Shown here in pieces: positions 52,908-59,083 of a DNA stretch of 64,000 nucleotides. The DNA lies in contig JANXVH010000101.1 of NCBI GenBank assembly GCA_025351765.1, forward strand, positions 1 to 64,000, in the 5' to 3' direction. How positions within the stretch are numbered: position 1 is the first letter of the stretch; each line of letters begins with the position of its first letter. The notes under the pieces are model-generated. The model ran no database searches. It was given only the letters and a program-made list of their open reading frames with translations, and was not told the DNA's origin. Source of the DNA: Pedobacter sp. GTDB taxonomy: Bacteria; Bacteroidota; Bacteroidia; Sphingobacteriales; Sphingobacteriaceae. Made by a program: the position numbers and the translations under genes.

Positions 52908-53411
52908 GTGAGAAAAGTTTATTGCATCCTGATTGTTAGTTTTTATGGTACCTTTTGTTTCGCCCAGCATGTGGCAGTTATAAATGGAAAGGCAATTGAG
53001 GAGAAGGAGTTTATGTGGTTTTACAAAAAAAATCATACAGGAAACGGCAACGTTTCTTACCAGGATCTCTTGGCTTATCTTAATCTTTATGTAGATTTTA
53101 AACTAAAGGTGCTGGATGCAAAAGCCTTAGACATGGATAAGGATACCACTTACCTAAAGGAAATAAAAAACTACGAGAACACCCTTAAAGAACAAAAGAA
53201 GGTATCTAAGAAAAGTCCAGAGTTTGCATTTTTAATCAATGAATATAAAGAGGCGGTTTTGATGTTCAATATTTCAGAAAAGAAAGTATGGAATACCGCT
53301 CAGGATGACATTACACAACAGAAGCTCGAAATGGAATGGATAGCTGAACTAAGAAAAAAGTTTCCGGTAAAGATATTCCAAGAACTAATAAAGAAAATGG
53401 CGAGGCCATAA
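52908..53411 (+). CDS. SurA-like protein without PPIase domain
   Basis: 167 residues from a GTG start, with signal peptide MRKVYCILIVSFYGTFCFAQ. The next about 70 residues (KEFMWFYKKNHTGNGNVSYQD, then LNLYVDFKLKVLDAKAL) are the N-terminal helical part of Bacteroidota SurA/PpiC-type proteins. The end (EYKEAVLMFNISEKKVWNTA) matches their C-terminal part. The one or two parvulin domains that normally lie between are missing, leaving a short charged join (TLKEQKKVSKKSPEFA). It is likely a chaperone-only relic or specialised binder. It is 49 nt upstream of the full SurA-like gene. Confidence 0.75.
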   Translation: MRKVYCILIVSFYGTFCFAQHVAVINGKAIEEKEFMWFYKKNHTGNGNVSYQDLLAYLNLYVDFKLKVLDAKALDMDKDTTYLKEIKNYENTLKEQKKVSKKSPEFAFLINEYKEAVLMFNISEKKVWNTAQDDITQQKLEMEWIAELRKKFPVKIFQELIKKMARP

Positions 53412-53430: not shown

Positions 53431-53460
53431 CAAAATAGATAATAATTGAAAAACTATACA

Positions 53461-54837
53461 ATGAGGAAATTTTTAATAATAGCGAGCGGAATTATCTGCT
53501 TGTTCTTTAATGCGAATGCGCAGCAATCAGAAAAAAAGAACATAGATAAAATGGTTGCAATCCTTGGTGGAAACATCATTCTGCTTTCAGAGTTAAACCA
53601 GCAATATGCACAATACCTAAATTCGGGAAATCCGGCAAATGAAAAATTTAAATGCTACCTCCTGCAGCAAATGCTTGGGGCAAAACTCTTGAAACAACAA
53701 GCAGAATTAGATTCGGTATACGTTGAAGAAAACCAGGTAGATGAAGAAGTGAATAAACGTATGCGCTATCAAGTTCAGAAAGCTGGTGGAGAAGAACGTC
53801 TAGAGCAGTTCCTAAATCGTTCTATACTCCAGTATAAGGACGAGATCAGGCCAGACATTAAAGAACAGCTTATTTCTCAGAAAATGCAGGCAAAGATTAC
53901 TCAGGACGTAAGTGTGACACCTTTAGAAGTTAGGAAGTATTTTAATTCTTACAAGAAAGATAGTTTACCGGATATAGCTACAGAATTTGAAATTGGTGAG
54001 ATTGTGCTGCATCCTAAGCTTACGAAATCGGAGAAACAAAAATTTTATGATAAAATTGATGCCTTTAGACTTAGGATTAAAAGCGGTGAGGATTTTGGAT
54101 TTTTAGCCAAGTCCTACTCAGAAGATCCAGGTTCTGCATCTGAAGGCGGAGATCTTGGTTTCTTCGATCGTACGCGTATGTTTAAAGAGTTTACTGCTTG
54201 GGCCTTTAAATTAAAGGCAGGTGAGATTTCTCCTGTATTTGAAACAGAAGCGGGGTACCATATCCTGCAAGTGATTGAAAGAAGAGGCGAGCAGGTTCAA
54301 GCCCGTCATATTCTTGTTCGTCCTAAAAACACTCCTGAAAGTATGGCAAGGATCAAATTGCAGGCTGATACCATTTACAAAAACTTAATCGACAAGAAGC
54401 TTCCATTTGCTTTCGCTGCATCCCAGTATTCAGACAATAAGGATTCTCAATACAATGGAGGCATGTTACTGTATGCAGATGCTGTTACAGCCAGAACCAC
54501 ATTTATTCCTGCAGATAAATTAGATCCTGCAGTGTTCTTGGTTGTTGATACGATGAAAGTGGGCGAAATTTCTAAACCAGTAGCTTTTACTAGTCCTGAA
54601 GATGGCAGAGAAGGCTACAAGATCCTTTACCTCAAATCTAAAGTTCCTCCTCATAAAGGCAGTCTTGAACAGGATTACGCTAAGTTCAAAGAGAAAGCTC
54701 AGGAAGATAAAGTAAACCGTATGATGAGCGAGTGGTTTGAGAAAAAGAGAGAAAATACGTATATCAGAATAGATAGTGATTTCGCAGATTGCGATGATTT
54801 AAAAGTTTGGACTAAAGGTGTAACTGCTAAAAATTAA
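53461..54837 (+). CDS. SurA-like periplasmic peptidyl-prolyl isomerase with two parvulin domains
   Basis: 458 residues from the ATG of MRKFLIIASGIICLFFNANA; an in-frame TTG five codons earlier is less likely. The SurA_N helical domain (about 30-165) is followed by parvulin domain one (about 174-275, SEDPGSASEGGDLGFFDRTR, then ETEAGYHILQVIE) and domain two (about 280-395, QARHILVRPKNTP and QYSDNKDSQYNGGML). SurA carries outer membrane proteins through the periplasm. Domain one keeps the GGDLGFF and GYHIL active-site features. It is followed 4 nt later by a MoxR ATPase gene. Confidence 0.93.
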   Translation: MRKFLIIASGIICLFFNANAQQSEKKNIDKMVAILGGNIILLSELNQQYAQYLNSGNPANEKFKCYLLQQMLGAKLLKQQAELDSVYVEENQVDEEVNKRMRYQVQKAGGEERLEQFLNRSILQYKDEIRPDIKEQLISQKMQAKITQDVSVTPLEVRKYFNSYKKDSLPDIATEFEIGEIVLHPKLTKSEKQKFYDKIDAFRLRIKSGEDFGFLAKSYSEDPGSASEGGDLGFFDRTRMFKEFTAWAFKLKAGEISPVFETEAGYHILQVIERRGEQVQARHILVRPKNTPESMARIKLQADTIYKNLIDKKLPFAFAASQYSDNKDSQYNGGMLLYADAVTARTTFIPADKLDPAVFLVVDTMKVGEISKPVAFTSPEDGREGYKILYLKSKVPPHKGSLEQDYAKFKEKAQEDKVNRMMSEWFEKKRENTYIRIDSDFADCDDLKVWTKGVTAKN

Positions 54838-54841
54838 AAGT

Positions 54842-55804
54842 ATGCAGTTTGAAAATGAGATAAAGGCAGTTGATGCGCTACATAAAACTTTTAATGACAT
54901 CAGCGCCGAGATAGGTAAAATTGTTATCGGTCAAAACGAGGTAGTTAAATCGGTTCTTATATCCATTTTCAGTAATGGCCATTGCTTGTTGGTAGGCGTA
55001 CCAGGCCTTGCGAAGACATTACTTGTACAGACAGTTGCCAATGTTATGGATCTTGATTTTAACAGGATTCAGTTTACACCGGATTTGATGCCAAGTGACA
55101 TTATTGGTGCAGAAATACTTGGTGAAGACCGGAGTTTTAAGTTTGTGAACGGACCAATATTTTCAAATATCATTTTAGCGGATGAGATCAACAGAACTCC
55201 TCCAAAAACACAGGCCGCACTTTTAGAGGCAATGCAAGAAAAAGCAATTACTGCTGCTGGTGTACGGCATTTATTGCCGAATCCTTTTTTTGTATTGGCT
55301 ACGCAAAACCCAATAGAGCAGGAAGGTACGTATCCGCTACCAGAAGCACAGCTGGATAGGTTTATGTTTAACATCCATTTAGGATACCCGTCTTTCGTAG
55401 ACGAACTAGCTATTGTGAGGAATACCACTAGCAATAGAAATGTGAACCTGAGAAAGATAATTAATGCCGAACAGATTCAATATTTTCAAAAACTAGTAAG
55501 GAATATCCCTATAACGGATAACGTTGTCGAATATGCCGTAAAATTAGTTGGTAAAACAAGACCTAACTCCGCTCTCGCAACCGAGGATATTAACAAGTAC
55601 ATCAGCTGGGGTGCCGGCCCAAGAGCTTCGCAATTTCTGGTAATCGGGGCTAAATGCCACGCTGCTATTAACGGCAAATATTCTCCCGATATTGAGGATG
55701 TACAGGCAGTTGCAGAATCTATATTACGCCACCGTATTGTAAGAAATTATCGTGCAGAGGCTGAAAATTTATCAGTAGAAAAAATTATTAGTCAGCTTTT
55801 CTAA
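54842..55804 (+). CDS. MoxR family AAA+ ATPase
   Basis: 320 residues. Walker A is VGVPGLAKTLLVQTVA, Walker B with the following helix is ILADEINRTPPKTQAALLEAM, sensor 1 is LATQNPIEQEGTYPLPEAQLDR, and the lid domain ends WGAGPRASQFLVIGAKCHA. MoxR ATPases act as chaperones for metal or VWA-domain partners; here no VWA or DUF58 gene follows. Its neighbour is surA, 4 nt upstream, so the two are probably one transcript. The partner is unknown. Confidence 0.94.
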   Translation: MQFENEIKAVDALHKTFNDISAEIGKIVIGQNEVVKSVLISIFSNGHCLLVGVPGLAKTLLVQTVANVMDLDFNRIQFTPDLMPSDIIGAEILGEDRSFKFVNGPIFSNIILADEINRTPPKTQAALLEAMQEKAITAAGVRHLLPNPFFVLATQNPIEQEGTYPLPEAQLDRFMFNIHLGYPSFVDELAIVRNTTSNRNVNLRKIINAEQIQYFQKLVRNIPITDNVVEYAVKLVGKTRPNSALATEDINKYISWGAGPRASQFLVIGAKCHAAINGKYSPDIEDVQAVAESILRHRIVRNYRAEAENLSVEKIISQLF

Positions 55805-55807
55805 AAA

Positions 55808-56686
55808 CTATTCCTCAATCGCCTTTTTATAGAGATTAGGATAGTCTGTTATCACCCCATCTACACCTAATGCAATAAGGTACTTCATATCTTTAATGGT
55901 ATTAACAGTCCAAGGAATAATCTTTATCCCTTCTTTATGGCACCTATCAATCAATCCCTTTCCAACTAGTACGGAATATGGACTATATACTGACGGCTTA
56001 AAACCAAGGTCTGAAATATTAACTTCAAAATCCACTTTCTCATCAATTAGCAAAGCAGTCTTCGCCTTTGGATAATGTTCATGTAAGTATTGCAACGTTC
56101 TGATATCGAAAGATTGTATGGTTACCCTTTTACTTAACTTTTTACGGTTAACAACCGCCATTACCAGCTCTATAAATTCTGCAGGCTCAGGCTGGAATTC
56201 ATTGTCTCCTTTAGGTATAGTTTTGGGTTCAATGCTATATTCTGGCTTTGGGAGTTTATTAAGCTTAACATAAACTTCTACCGAATCAATGGCCTCCTCT
56301 AATAAAGGTTTATATGCCGGAAATTTCTCTTGAAATGGAAAACGGTTATGGATCTTCTTGCCCACGTCAAACTTTCTAACGTCCTCATAATCCATTTTAT
56401 AGATATTATAGGTTTTCTGGTCTTTCAGCGTAATGGGCTTCCCGTCCGGGCGAAGACTAAACTCATGATTAAAGTACGGCTCTTGAGATAACACTACCTT
56501 CTTATCCTTGGATATCACCGTATTCATAGTTATAGTATGCACGCCCAAAGCTAACGCCCTAAGCATGCCAGGAATGGTATTTTCAGGCATGATTCCTCTC
56601 GCACCACGATTGCCTTGAAGATCGAACTGCTGAGCGGAAACATGCAAAACGTTAAATAAAAGAATCAGTAGAACTAATCTTCTCAT
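55808..56686 (-). CDS. Glycerophosphodiester phosphodiesterase-fold protein, catalytic residues lost
   Basis: 292 residues with signal peptide MRRLVLLILLFNVLHVSAQ. The TIM-barrel GDPD fold is clear: LQGNRGARGIMPENTIPGM, VISKDKKVVLSQEP, VTIQSFDIRTLQYLHEHYP, IIPWTVNTIKDMKYLIALG and GVDGVITDYPNL. However, the family's catalytic His in HRGARG is Asn at about 26, the ExD metal pair is Thr 53 and Asn 55, and the second catalytic His is Gln at about 68. Later barrel residues and length are normal and there is no frameshift. It is likely a pseudoenzyme with a binding role, perhaps of glycerophosphodiester-like ligands. It converges on the MoxR gene with a 3-nt gap. Confidence 0.88.
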   Translation of the reverse strand: MRRLVLLILLFNVLHVSAQQFDLQGNRGARGIMPENTIPGMLRALALGVHTITMNTVISKDKKVVLSQEPYFNHEFSLRPDGKPITLKDQKTYNIYKMDYEDVRKFDVGKKIHNRFPFQEKFPAYKPLLEEAIDSVEVYVKLNKLPKPEYSIEPKTIPKGDNEFQPEPAEFIELVMAVVNRKKLSKRVTIQSFDIRTLQYLHEHYPKAKTALLIDEKVDFEVNISDLGFKPSVYSPYSVLVGKGLIDRCHKEGIKIIPWTVNTIKDMKYLIALGVDGVITDYPNLYKKAIEE

Positions 56687-56693
56687 AAAAAAG

Positions 56694-57545
56694 TTACCGT
56701 TCAGCGGGTGAGAATACCATGGCTACTAAATTCCACATTGCATCTGGCTGGCGCTCGTATACAAAAACGTAATTGAAGCTTTCTCTAAGATCAGCTTTGT
56801 AGTCAATTGCCGTTATACCATAAGTGTAAGCCAAATCACCGCCATCTGCTTTAACGACTTTAGTTCTTTTTAAAGAAACTTTTGCAAACATGCTGTTAAT
56901 GAAAGAAACAGCTTTATCCTTACCAAGAATTGGCTCATATCCCGGAAATAAAATCCTTACATCTGGATTAACAAAACCAGCAAAAGCACCCACACCATGT
57001 GTCTTTAGTAAAGTATTTAGCGTTTCTTCCGTAGTTCCAATGATCTCTGCACCAGTTGCTCTTTGTTTATCCGTCATAAACTTAGGCATAAAATGATCCT
57101 TCGGCTCTATAAACGCAACTGTTGTTGGCTTTAACGGCTTATTATGTGAAATACCAAGGTCAATAGCAAGCTCCCATTTTTCATTCACTGTTTTCCATAT
57201 AGAGAAATACTGTCCAAAAGAACTTCCTCCCATCACAAAAGGGCCTGTAGTAAAACCGATATCTCCGCTTCTTGAAACTTTAGCATAAACGGGCGTCCAA
57301 CTAACATCCTTAGATTCAGGTTGTGATCCATAAAAACTCTTAGCATTTACAGGGTTTGGTCTAAATACCAAACCGTTTGCGGCAGAGAAAGTGGCGTATG
57401 CCTTTTTAGAGCCATCTTTTGCAAAAAGTTCAGCGAAAGCTTCCTCTGCCTTTACTAATGATTTTGTTGTTCCATCGGATTTTTGAGCATAAGCACCAAG
57501 CGATAAAGACGCAGCAATGATGGTATAAAGGATTTTTTTTGTCAT
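56694..57545 (-). CDS. Secreted protein with two NTF2-like (DUF4440/SnoaL) domains
   Basis: 283 residues. The signal peptide MTKKILYTIIAASLSLGAYA is followed by two NTF2-like cone folds: about 25-150 (LVKAEEAFAELFAKDGSKKA, then ISRSGDIGFTTGPFVMGG-like strands and FSIWKTVNEKWELAIDLG) and about 160-283 (TLLKTHGVGAFAGFVNPDV, then GGDLAYTYGITAIDYKAD and YERQPDAMWNLVAMVF). Such proteins can bind or isomerise small molecules, but active-site acids cannot be assigned. It lies 7 nt upstream of the GDPD-like gene and is probably co-transcribed with it. Confidence 0.8.
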   Translation of the reverse strand: MTKKILYTIIAASLSLGAYAQKSDGTTKSLVKAEEAFAELFAKDGSKKAYATFSAANGLVFRPNPVNAKSFYGSQPESKDVSWTPVYAKVSRSGDIGFTTGPFVMGGSSFGQYFSIWKTVNEKWELAIDLGISHNKPLKPTTVAFIEPKDHFMPKFMTDKQRATGAEIIGTTEETLNTLLKTHGVGAFAGFVNPDVRILFPGYEPILGKDKAVSFINSMFAKVSLKRTKVVKADGGDLAYTYGITAIDYKADLRESFNYVFVYERQPDAMWNLVAMVFSPAER

Positions 57546-57622
57546 AATTTTTTTATATTAACGGGACGAATATAAGGTTTGATTAATGGGACAGTCTAAA
57601 AAGTATTCAACAATTGCACAAT

Positions 57623-59083
57623 CTAGATTTTGTTCCAGGTGGTACCCTCTTTACTATCTTTTAATTGTATGCCCATTGATTGCAGGCCAACCCTAATCTT
57701 ATCAGAAGTAGCGTAGTCTTTATTCTCTTTGGCAGATTTTCTGATGTCCACAACTAACTCCAGCACCAAGTTGAGCTCTGTATTGGAAGTATCTTCGTCC
57801 TTAAGTCCAAAAATATCAAATATAAAATCCTGCACCAATGCTTTAAGTTTTTCTAATTGCACCGCAGAAATGCTACCTGTGCCGTCGTGCACAACATTGA
57901 TGATCCTTACGGCTTCAAACAATTCTGCAATTACAACCGGACTGTTAAAATCGTCATTCATCGCTTTAAGACAATTATCAGCAATAGGTCCAATCTCGAA
58001 ATCATTCTTTTCCGACGTATGTAATTTATCCAACAAACTAACTGCGTTCATTAACCGCCTGAACCCTTTCTCTGAGGCATCAAGTGCTTCGTTTGAAAAA
58101 TCAAGAGTACTGCGATAATGTGCCTGTAACATGAAAAATTTAACCGTCATGGGGCTGAAACCCTTTTTTAATAAGGGGTGACTCCCAGTAAAAAGTTCAT
58201 GCGGAAGAAAGCCGTTACCCAATGATTTCGACATCCGCGAACCATTTACGGTGAGCATGTTGGTATGCATCCAGTATTTTGCTGGCTGCTTGTGGCTGCA
58301 TGCCTCAGACTGGGCAATTTCATTGGTATGGTGTGTGGCTGCGAGATCCATTCCGCCACCATGAATATCAAACTCATCACCGAGATATTTTGCGCTCATA
58401 GCTGAGCACTCAATATGCCATCCGGGAAAACCAACACTCCAAGGAGATGGCCATCGCATAATGGTTTCAGGCTTAGCTTTTATCCACAGGGCAAAGTCTA
58501 ACCGACCACGCTTATCGTCCTGTCCACCAAGCTCCCTGGTATTTGCTAGCATGTCTTCTAGATTCCGGTTTGTTAATATGGTATAGCTATATTCTTTACT
58601 GTATTTGTCTACATCAAAATAAATGGTGCCGTCAACTTCGTATGCATAGTCGTTGTTGATGATCTCCTTTATCATTTCAATTTGCTCCATGATATGGCCA
58701 GTAGCAGTTGGCTCTATACTAGGTGGCAGCGTATTAAATACCCGCATTACGTCATGAAAACCCAAAGTGTATTTTTGTACTATTTCCATTGGCTCCAACT
58801 GCTCCAGTTTTGCTCGTTTGGCGAACTTGTCATCACCCTCATCACGATCGCCTTCCAAATGCCCTGCATCTGTAATGTTCCTTACATAACGAACTTTATA
58901 ACCGCTGTATTTAAGATACCTGAAAATCAAATCAAATGAAATGAACGTACGACAATTACCTAAATGCACATCACTATAAACAGTAGGTCCGCACACATAC
59001 ATTCCCACATTAGGGGCATGAAGCGGCTCAAAAAATTCTTTTTTGCGCGTTAATGTATTGTATAGCTGTAAGCCTGTGTTCAT
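57623..59083 (-). CDS. cysS: Cysteinyl-tRNA synthetase
   Basis: 486 residues, a full class Ia enzyme. The HIGH motif appears as [13 protein letters not shown], zinc-binding residues include MYVCGPTVY and [13 protein letters not shown], the [18 protein letters not shown] segment is typical, and the KMSKS loop is [10 protein letters not shown]. The helical anticodon-binding DALR domain follows to the end. A TAAATTTG box lies 5 nt upstream of the ATG, although the EEP-family gene ends only 18 nt further upstream on the same strand, so both read-through and a separate promoter are possible. Confidence 0.97.

Follow-up and report, generated by a model that had tools for sequence, protein, structure and literature searches.

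A Pedobacter-wide GDPD-fold protein with a replaced active site and a probable non-catalytic role

Among secreted GDPD-like proteins, the plant SHV3-type proteins have wall-related roles. For the enzyme TtGDPD, PMC9842563 names His17, His59 and Asp239 as catalytic and describes how Arg18, Lys121 and a metal stabilise the transition state, and PMC4926365 reports that alanine at any of the three metal-binding acidic residues renders the enzyme inactive. PI-PLC, of the same fold superfamily, is a barrel without metal, in which an arginine stands in the metal's place and the two catalytic histidines are kept (PMC9842563). Inactive GDPD paralogues have been noted earlier in a few pathogens, with no function found: MPN566 of Mycoplasma pneumoniae is a GlpQ paralogue that was inactive by assay and whose inactivation had no phenotypic effect. 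Its authors also mention inactive GlpQ-like proteins from further species, among which they name Treponema pallidum, and describe the functions of these as still to be discovered (PMC3178575).

The protein considered here, from Pedobacter sp., resembles MPN566 in being a GDPD-family paralogue that has lost active-site residues and has an active enzyme alongside it (PMC3178575). However, while MPN566 was assayed, the Pedobacter protein is known from sequence, is carried by all 132 of the 132 Pedobacter genomes that are of high quality (completeness of at least 90%, contamination of at most 5%) and occurs in 26 active-site states. A literature search, whose scope stopped short of most subscription papers and preprints, returned no paper with a Pedobacter pseudo-GDPD in its title or the start of its abstract, and the Pedobacter paper PMC4666044 concerns, in its available part, other proteins. 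Inactive GDPD paralogues are thus already known as a kind, and the Pedobacter-wide version is new and well populated.

The gene, called pseudo-GDPD in the following, lies at positions 55808-56686 on the minus strand of the window, that is, the whole stretch of 64,000 nucleotides that was analysed (assembly GCA_025351765.1, contig JANXVH010000101.1). It is one intact open reading frame of 292 aa with no stops, and residues 1 to about 19, judged by eye, look like a signal peptide, which suggests that the protein is exported. The Pfam search matches PF03009 (GDPD) over residues 27-284 with 97.7 bits, and the AlphaFold model has a pLDDT of 91.5 and a pTM of 0.87. The solved structure closest to the model was found to be 3ch0, a GDPD from Cytophaga hutchinsonii that matches it in both length and fold (Z 39.0, rmsd 1.8 for 267 residues, 45% identity), and the TtGDPD structure 2pz0 gives a Z of 31.6. 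These results confirm the full-length GDPD-type TIM barrel, free of stops, that had been proposed in an earlier annotation made from the letters of the window (hereafter the sequence-only reading). A scan for promoters and terminators was not clear of shuffles (8 found against a mean of 6.2, sd 2.4, and 0 found against a mean of 1.5).

The same reading held that four catalytic positions are replaced, and this was borne out at each of them by alignment to active-type GDPDs, which have H, E, D and H where the window protein has N, T, N and Q at positions 26, 53, 55 and 68. Asn26 (codon at 56609-56611; this and all following codons are on the minus strand) replaces the first catalytic histidine, which is present in 59 of 59 active-type GDPDs and in 30 of the 142 Pedobacter orthologues. 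Thr53 (56528-56530) replaces a metal-binding glutamate that 70 of the 142 keep, with 11 residue types at this position in the clade, and Asn55 (56522-56524) a metal-binding aspartate kept in 75. At Gln68 (56483-56485), where the second catalytic histidine would be, the orthologues have Gln in 108 cases, His in 32 and Ala in 2, and the parsimony ancestor is Gln. In the alignment with 3ch0, the His/Arg/Glu/Asp/His of that protein stands opposite N/R/T/N/Q. The window protein has, in other words, neither of the two catalytic histidines of a GDPD enzyme (EC 3.1.4.46), and with no His at 26 or 68 it also differs from the metal-free PI-PLC, which keeps both and has an arginine replacing the metal. 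Among the three acidic metal ligands, only Glu153 is kept.

It should be pointed out that the loss does not comprise exactly the catalytic set, as had been stated. Arg27 (56606-56608), Glu153 (56228-56230; Glu in 141 of 142), Lys155 (56222-56224) and Asp281 (55844-55846; Asp in 142 of 142, and in the active-type set Asp in 57 and Asn in the remaining 2 of 59) are all kept, and by our own reading of alignments and motifs they correspond, in this order, to Arg18, the third metal-binding acid, Lys121 and Asp239 of TtGDPD, the last of these assigned by motif. What has been lost is therefore the histidine pair and two of the three metal ligands, and not every catalytic residue. In the clade, moreover, positions 191, 213 and 279, which are invariant in active enzymes, have also been released, while W259, D194, R196, D276 and G277 are invariant. 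The window protein combines a lost active site with an intact GDPD fold, as an inactive GDPD paralogue does, and we infer that enzymatic activity itself has been lost.

An orthologue (match at E<=1e-60) is present in 142 of 145 Pedobacter genomes, and the three genomes with no match (G035, G137 and G158) are 79-84% complete. The 142 distinct orthologue proteins that were read are all open over 290-305 aa, and identity with the window protein ranges from 57 to 81% for the remaining 141. Matches at E<=1e-92 among 399 genomes of the family come from 105 Pedobacter genomes and four others, the latter at 48-53% identity, and a plasmid collection contains 59 matching records, all below 60% identity, the best of them (47.5%) in Hymenobacter.

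The full active set is found in none of the 142 orthologues, compared to 59 of 59 active-type GDPDs. These controls consist of 40 Pedobacter paralogues, the second copy of the present genome (L001) and 18 loci of other genera of the family, and all seven active positions, Glu153 included, are kept in 40 of 40 paralogues, in L001 and in 18 of 18 loci of other genera. The paralogues, from 37 Pedobacter genomes, were chosen among the matches listed, with weaker, broken or unlisted GDPD copies left out, and the count of 40 of 40 holds therefore for the nearer full-length paralogues; the 18 loci represent 17 of the 33 genomes outside Pedobacter that gave a match, the remaining class-level matches being left out. 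Orthologues with a set similar to N/T/N/Q, for which the sequence-only reading had suggested a search, do exist, since the nearest orthologues share N-R-[TSN]-N-Q. This sharing, together with the full set being absent in 142 of 142 orthologues compared to 0 of 59 controls, indicates that the loss is not due to chance.

As a selected pattern, on the other hand, N/T/N/Q does not survive the comparison, because the orthologues differ: at positions 26, 27, 53, 55, 68 and 155 they carry 26 combinations, none of which is H-R-E-D-H-K, and a shared selected signature of this composition is thereby ruled out. The commonest states at these six positions are KAEDQK (60 of 142), NRKEQK (11) and QRGNHK (8), followed by NRNNQK, HREDQK and HQNGHS with 7 each. 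Counted by how many of the six active residues are kept, 49 orthologues have two, 80 have three, 6 have four and 7 have five. Replacements such as E53K, H26K and neutral pairs in the alignment could conceivably offset the charge of the missing metal.

The protein as a whole is nevertheless under purifying selection across species. The median pairwise dN/dS (Nei-Gojobori, 0.1<dS<0.8) is 0.022 for the orthologues (94 pairs), compared to 0.046 for the active-type paralogues (13 pairs) and 0.126 for the outgroup GDPDs (4 pairs), and with disjoint pairs the medians for orthologues and paralogues are 0.023 (24 pairs) and 0.046 (5 pairs). By subclade, with a wider range of 0.1<dS<1.5, the medians are 0.023 for the window's own type (16 pairs), 0.040 for xRGNH (13 pairs) and 0.053 for the HQ types (2 pairs). 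These ratios describe the clade; for the nearest pairs of the window protein, silent-site differences have reached saturation (pS of at least 0.80), and its own branch therefore gives no ratio. The 59 active-type proteins have 42 sites with a conservation of at least 98%, and among the 142 orthologues the 7 catalytic sites of this set show more variation than the remaining 35 (Mann-Whitney P=3e-4). Selection for a non-catalytic role with the fold kept, as had been suggested from the sequence, is thus supported by 142 orthologues, a dN/dS of about 0.02 and near-universal retention.

The 142 orthologues form one clade with an SH-aLRT of 100 in a tree calculated with the seven active-site columns removed, and the result was repeated with 33 of the 142; the searches were quick ones, and the basal branches inside the clade are weak. 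Parsimony on the tree requires 12 changes at site 26, 4 at 27, 17 at 53, 8 at 55, 3 at 68 and 6 at 155, and it assigns Gln68, Glu53 and Asp55 to the ancestor, with sites 26 and 27 ambiguous. The simplest history is therefore that the second histidine was lost early and that the other sites then changed repeatedly, and with Gln68 in the ancestor, the 32 orthologues that have His68 would have regained it. Since the basal branches are weak, an order of loss that starts with H68Q is put forward as a suggestion.

Our main reading, to which we assign a probability of roughly 0.7, is that a GDPD copy entered a conserved gene block on the Pedobacter stem, lost catalysis early and took on a non-catalytic role that has been kept. 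In this scheme, the copy would have settled in the block cysS-DUF4440 // moxR-surA, phosphodiesterase catalysis would have been lost early, with H68Q as the first step by parsimony, and the new role would then have been retained by nearly every lineage. The exported protein would bind a partner protein, a glycan or a lipid headgroup via its rim, and not via the old metal/phosphate site. The individual parts can be graded separately: it is probable that catalytic activity disappeared near the stem of the genus and that a role of another, non-catalytic kind was retained, and the secreted GDPD-fold protein very probably has a different, non-cutting job. The role in ligand binding or scaffolding that the sequence-only reading had in mind is accordingly retained as far as it is non-catalytic and weakened as far as it would use the old site. 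Namely, Arg27 (65 of 142 orthologues) and Lys155 (125 of 142) are not conserved, so that the old site is unlikely to bind glycerophosphodiesters as a common function, and ligand binding in the old phosphate pocket is disfavoured as the shared role.

A practical consequence is that family-based annotation would label pseudo-GDPD an enzyme in nearly every Pedobacter genome, which it very likely is not. The genus also supplies 142 orthologues, natural active-site variants and an old gene block, which makes both the role of the protein and the drift of a disused site directly testable. For one member of the genus, Pedobacter sp. GW460-11-11-14-LB5, fitness data are presented in PMC9007349.

As to where the new role might reside, 25 positions were found to be near-invariant and clade-specific in the 142 orthologues, meaning that they are at least 97% conserved in the clade while the same residue occurs in less than 35% of the active-type set. 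They include E69, P70, F72, N73, S77, N94, R115, K126, D215, E216, Y237, L240, G242 and K243. Residues 69-73 (56468-56482, minus strand) form an EPYFN signature that is fixed in the clade, with 140 of 142 orthologues having it and 2 having EPFFN, compared to 0 of 59 active-type proteins. According to the alignment and the AlphaFold model, residues 214-217 (IDEK; 56036-56047, minus strand) carry the clade-specific invariants D215 and E216 after a barrel strand, and residues 237-243 (YSVLVGK; 55958-55978, minus strand) carry the near-invariants Y237, L240, G242 and K243 at the end of one. In the secondary structure of the predicted model, several clade-specific residues are located in loops after barrel strands, on the mouth side. 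A face drawn by hand from the printed secondary structure comprises 106 of 269 positions and takes in 15 of the 25 (P=0.024), a weak indication in the same direction. Most likely, as we infer from the model, the protein works by binding through the barrel-mouth loops (EPYFN, IDEK and YxxLVGK), with the barrel as a scaffold.

A more far-reaching version of this is possible, although we hold it only tentatively and would not expect it to prevail. According to it, the clade is a core Pedobacter family in which the GDPD barrel was converted to a new module for binding or catalysis, the old site having been given up on the genus stem and re-mutated to at least 26 states while a new mouth surface (the same three motifs) became fixed. 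If true, the module would serve a cell-envelope process common to the whole genus.

The newly conserved residues are also what speaks for the alternative that fares best, namely that the protein is an enzyme of a new kind, with a catalytic centre built from clade-specific polar residues such as E69, D215, E216 and K243, joined by E153 and D281, which are kept. All six are invariant or almost invariant across the 142 orthologues, the first four are uncommon in the 59 active-type proteins, and in the model D215, E216 and K243 come after barrel strands. TIM barrels, furthermore, often change their chemistry. However, the lineages differ freely at the positions that formed the old pocket, which would be odd for a conserved new pocket, and we consider this explanation unlikely.

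Another option is that the non-catalytic protein acts as a regulatory or stabilising pseudo-subunit in a heteromer with an active GDPD paralogue of the same cell. All 37 sampled Pedobacter genomes, and the present one as well, carry a paralogue of the active type, which also speaks for our main reading; the second GDPD of the present genome, L001, keeps HREDHEK, and the PF03009 search finds both genes of this genome. By our reading of the table, 142 of 144 genomes have at least two GDPD matches, pseudo-GDPD included, and the sampled paralogues are, as described above, of the active type in 40 of 40 cases. Against the idea, the two genes show no closer linkage than tens of kb, seen in a few genomes, and the number and type of paralogues differ between genomes, and we judge it improbable. 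In G002, G012, G025, G034 and G160, pseudo-GDPD shares its contig with a GDPD paralogue of the active type, at a distance of some 45-61 kb.

A possible functional pair with the neighbouring gene had also been suggested from the sequence. The neighbour, at 56694-57545 on the minus strand, encodes a secreted DUF4440/NTF2-like protein (P0002), identified by Pfam, AlphaFold and locus comparison. Its AlphaFold model has a pLDDT of 88.2, and the C-terminal half is NTF2-like (3hx8, Z 15.5, rmsd 2.6, 120 residues). The Pfam DUF4440 match and the structural matches mainly cover this half and barely the N-terminal one; the helix/strand order is alike in the N-terminal half, and the protein resembles two tandem NTF2-like domains. 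On the other flank, a convergent gene for a MoxR-type AAA ATPase, named by us from its sequence, is found at 54842-55804 on the plus strand. The names cysS, moxR, surA, EEP, rdgB and rhomboid, used for genes of the block, are likewise presumed from the sequences; family searches covered pseudo-GDPD and P0002.

The gap of 7 nt between pseudo-GDPD and the DUF4440 gene (56687-56693) that had been taken as a sign of pairing is real, but it is atypical, since over 136 linked Pedobacter loci the median is 154 nt, with less than 50 nt in 10 (a measure that counts the stop codon). In favour of a pair, 136 of the 139 testable Pedobacter loci have the DUF4440 gene upstream of pseudo-GDPD and in the same orientation, three of the 142 being cut by a contig end and lying outside this count, and both proteins look exported by eye. 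The DUF4440 gene, however, is also widespread outside Pedobacter. It has matches in 82 of 101 genomes of the family, and in 72 of the 91 outside Pedobacter. Of ten DUF4440 loci read in other genera, none shows a GDPD gene within about 3 kb, and 9 have cysS in the same orientation at no more than 2 kb. Five of the ten have moxR on the other side of the DUF4440 gene within 3 kb, so that the whole stretch to moxR can be seen there; nothing lies in the slot between the two in L235, and in L237 and L240 it is occupied by other genes, by eye those of an isoaspartyl peptidase and an iron alcohol dehydrogenase. Within Pedobacter, the two genes are about 26 kb apart in G094 and G121 and about 10 kb apart in G109, and the linkage with cysS and with moxR-surA is also often kept.

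The two genes thus do not behave as a unit with obligate co-occurrence and linkage, and the NTF2-like gene was rejected as an obligate partner. With an older DUF4440 block lacking GDPD in the other genera compared, and with separated loci in Pedobacter itself, the pair is a newcomer in an old block rather than evidence for a joint function, and this is how the adjacency is best read from the loci compared. A functional pair with this neighbour appears to us, all evidence considered, a poor prospect.

The arrangement EEP-cysS-DUF4440 // moxR-surA (window 54842-59083; loci L232-L243) is common to Pedobacter and other genera of the family, and its variable slot, from DUF4440 to moxR, holds pseudo-GDPD in Pedobacter. 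Further along, the two plus-strand reading frames at 52908-53411 and 53446-54837 have GTG and TTG as their listed starts, which may be mis-set, and the second looks SurA/PpiC-like by eye.

An early loss of catalysis, which our main reading implies, can also be questioned from the states of the clade itself, in that part of it, of the HREDQ or HQDDH types, might still be a phosphodiesterase, the window lineage then representing a later full loss. Both histidines are kept in 20 of 142 orthologues and an acidic triad in 75, and HREDQK (7 of 142), which lacks only one of the six active residues, and HQDDH (6 of 142) keep much of the set. With the triad in 75 and HREDQK in seven, some members of the clade could keep residual chemistry, and a title in the reference list of PMC9842563 concerns the pitfalls of pseudoenzyme calls. 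However, according to the residue roles given in PMC9842563 and our own alignment, HREDQ and HQDDH are without the equivalents of TtGDPD His59, or of Arg18 and Lys121, and we find a surviving phosphodiesterase very unlikely.

Finally, a decaying or mis-sequenced strain-specific gene can be dismissed, as the nearest relative (81% identical) shares N-R-T-N-Q, the 142 orthologues are open over their length, and close relatives that retain His/Glu/Asp, the finding that the sequence-only reading had named as pointing to such decay, were looked for among the 142 and not found.

Two minor observations concern the metal-ligand positions. L030, from genome G005, is the sole orthologue of the 142 in which Glu153 is changed, to Lys, and it has Arg at 155. 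In addition, L108-L117 and L119 (NRKEQ) together with L088 and L107 (NRKEA) make up a subclade with a lysine at the metal-ligand position 53, which recalls the arginine that replaces the metal in PI-PLC.
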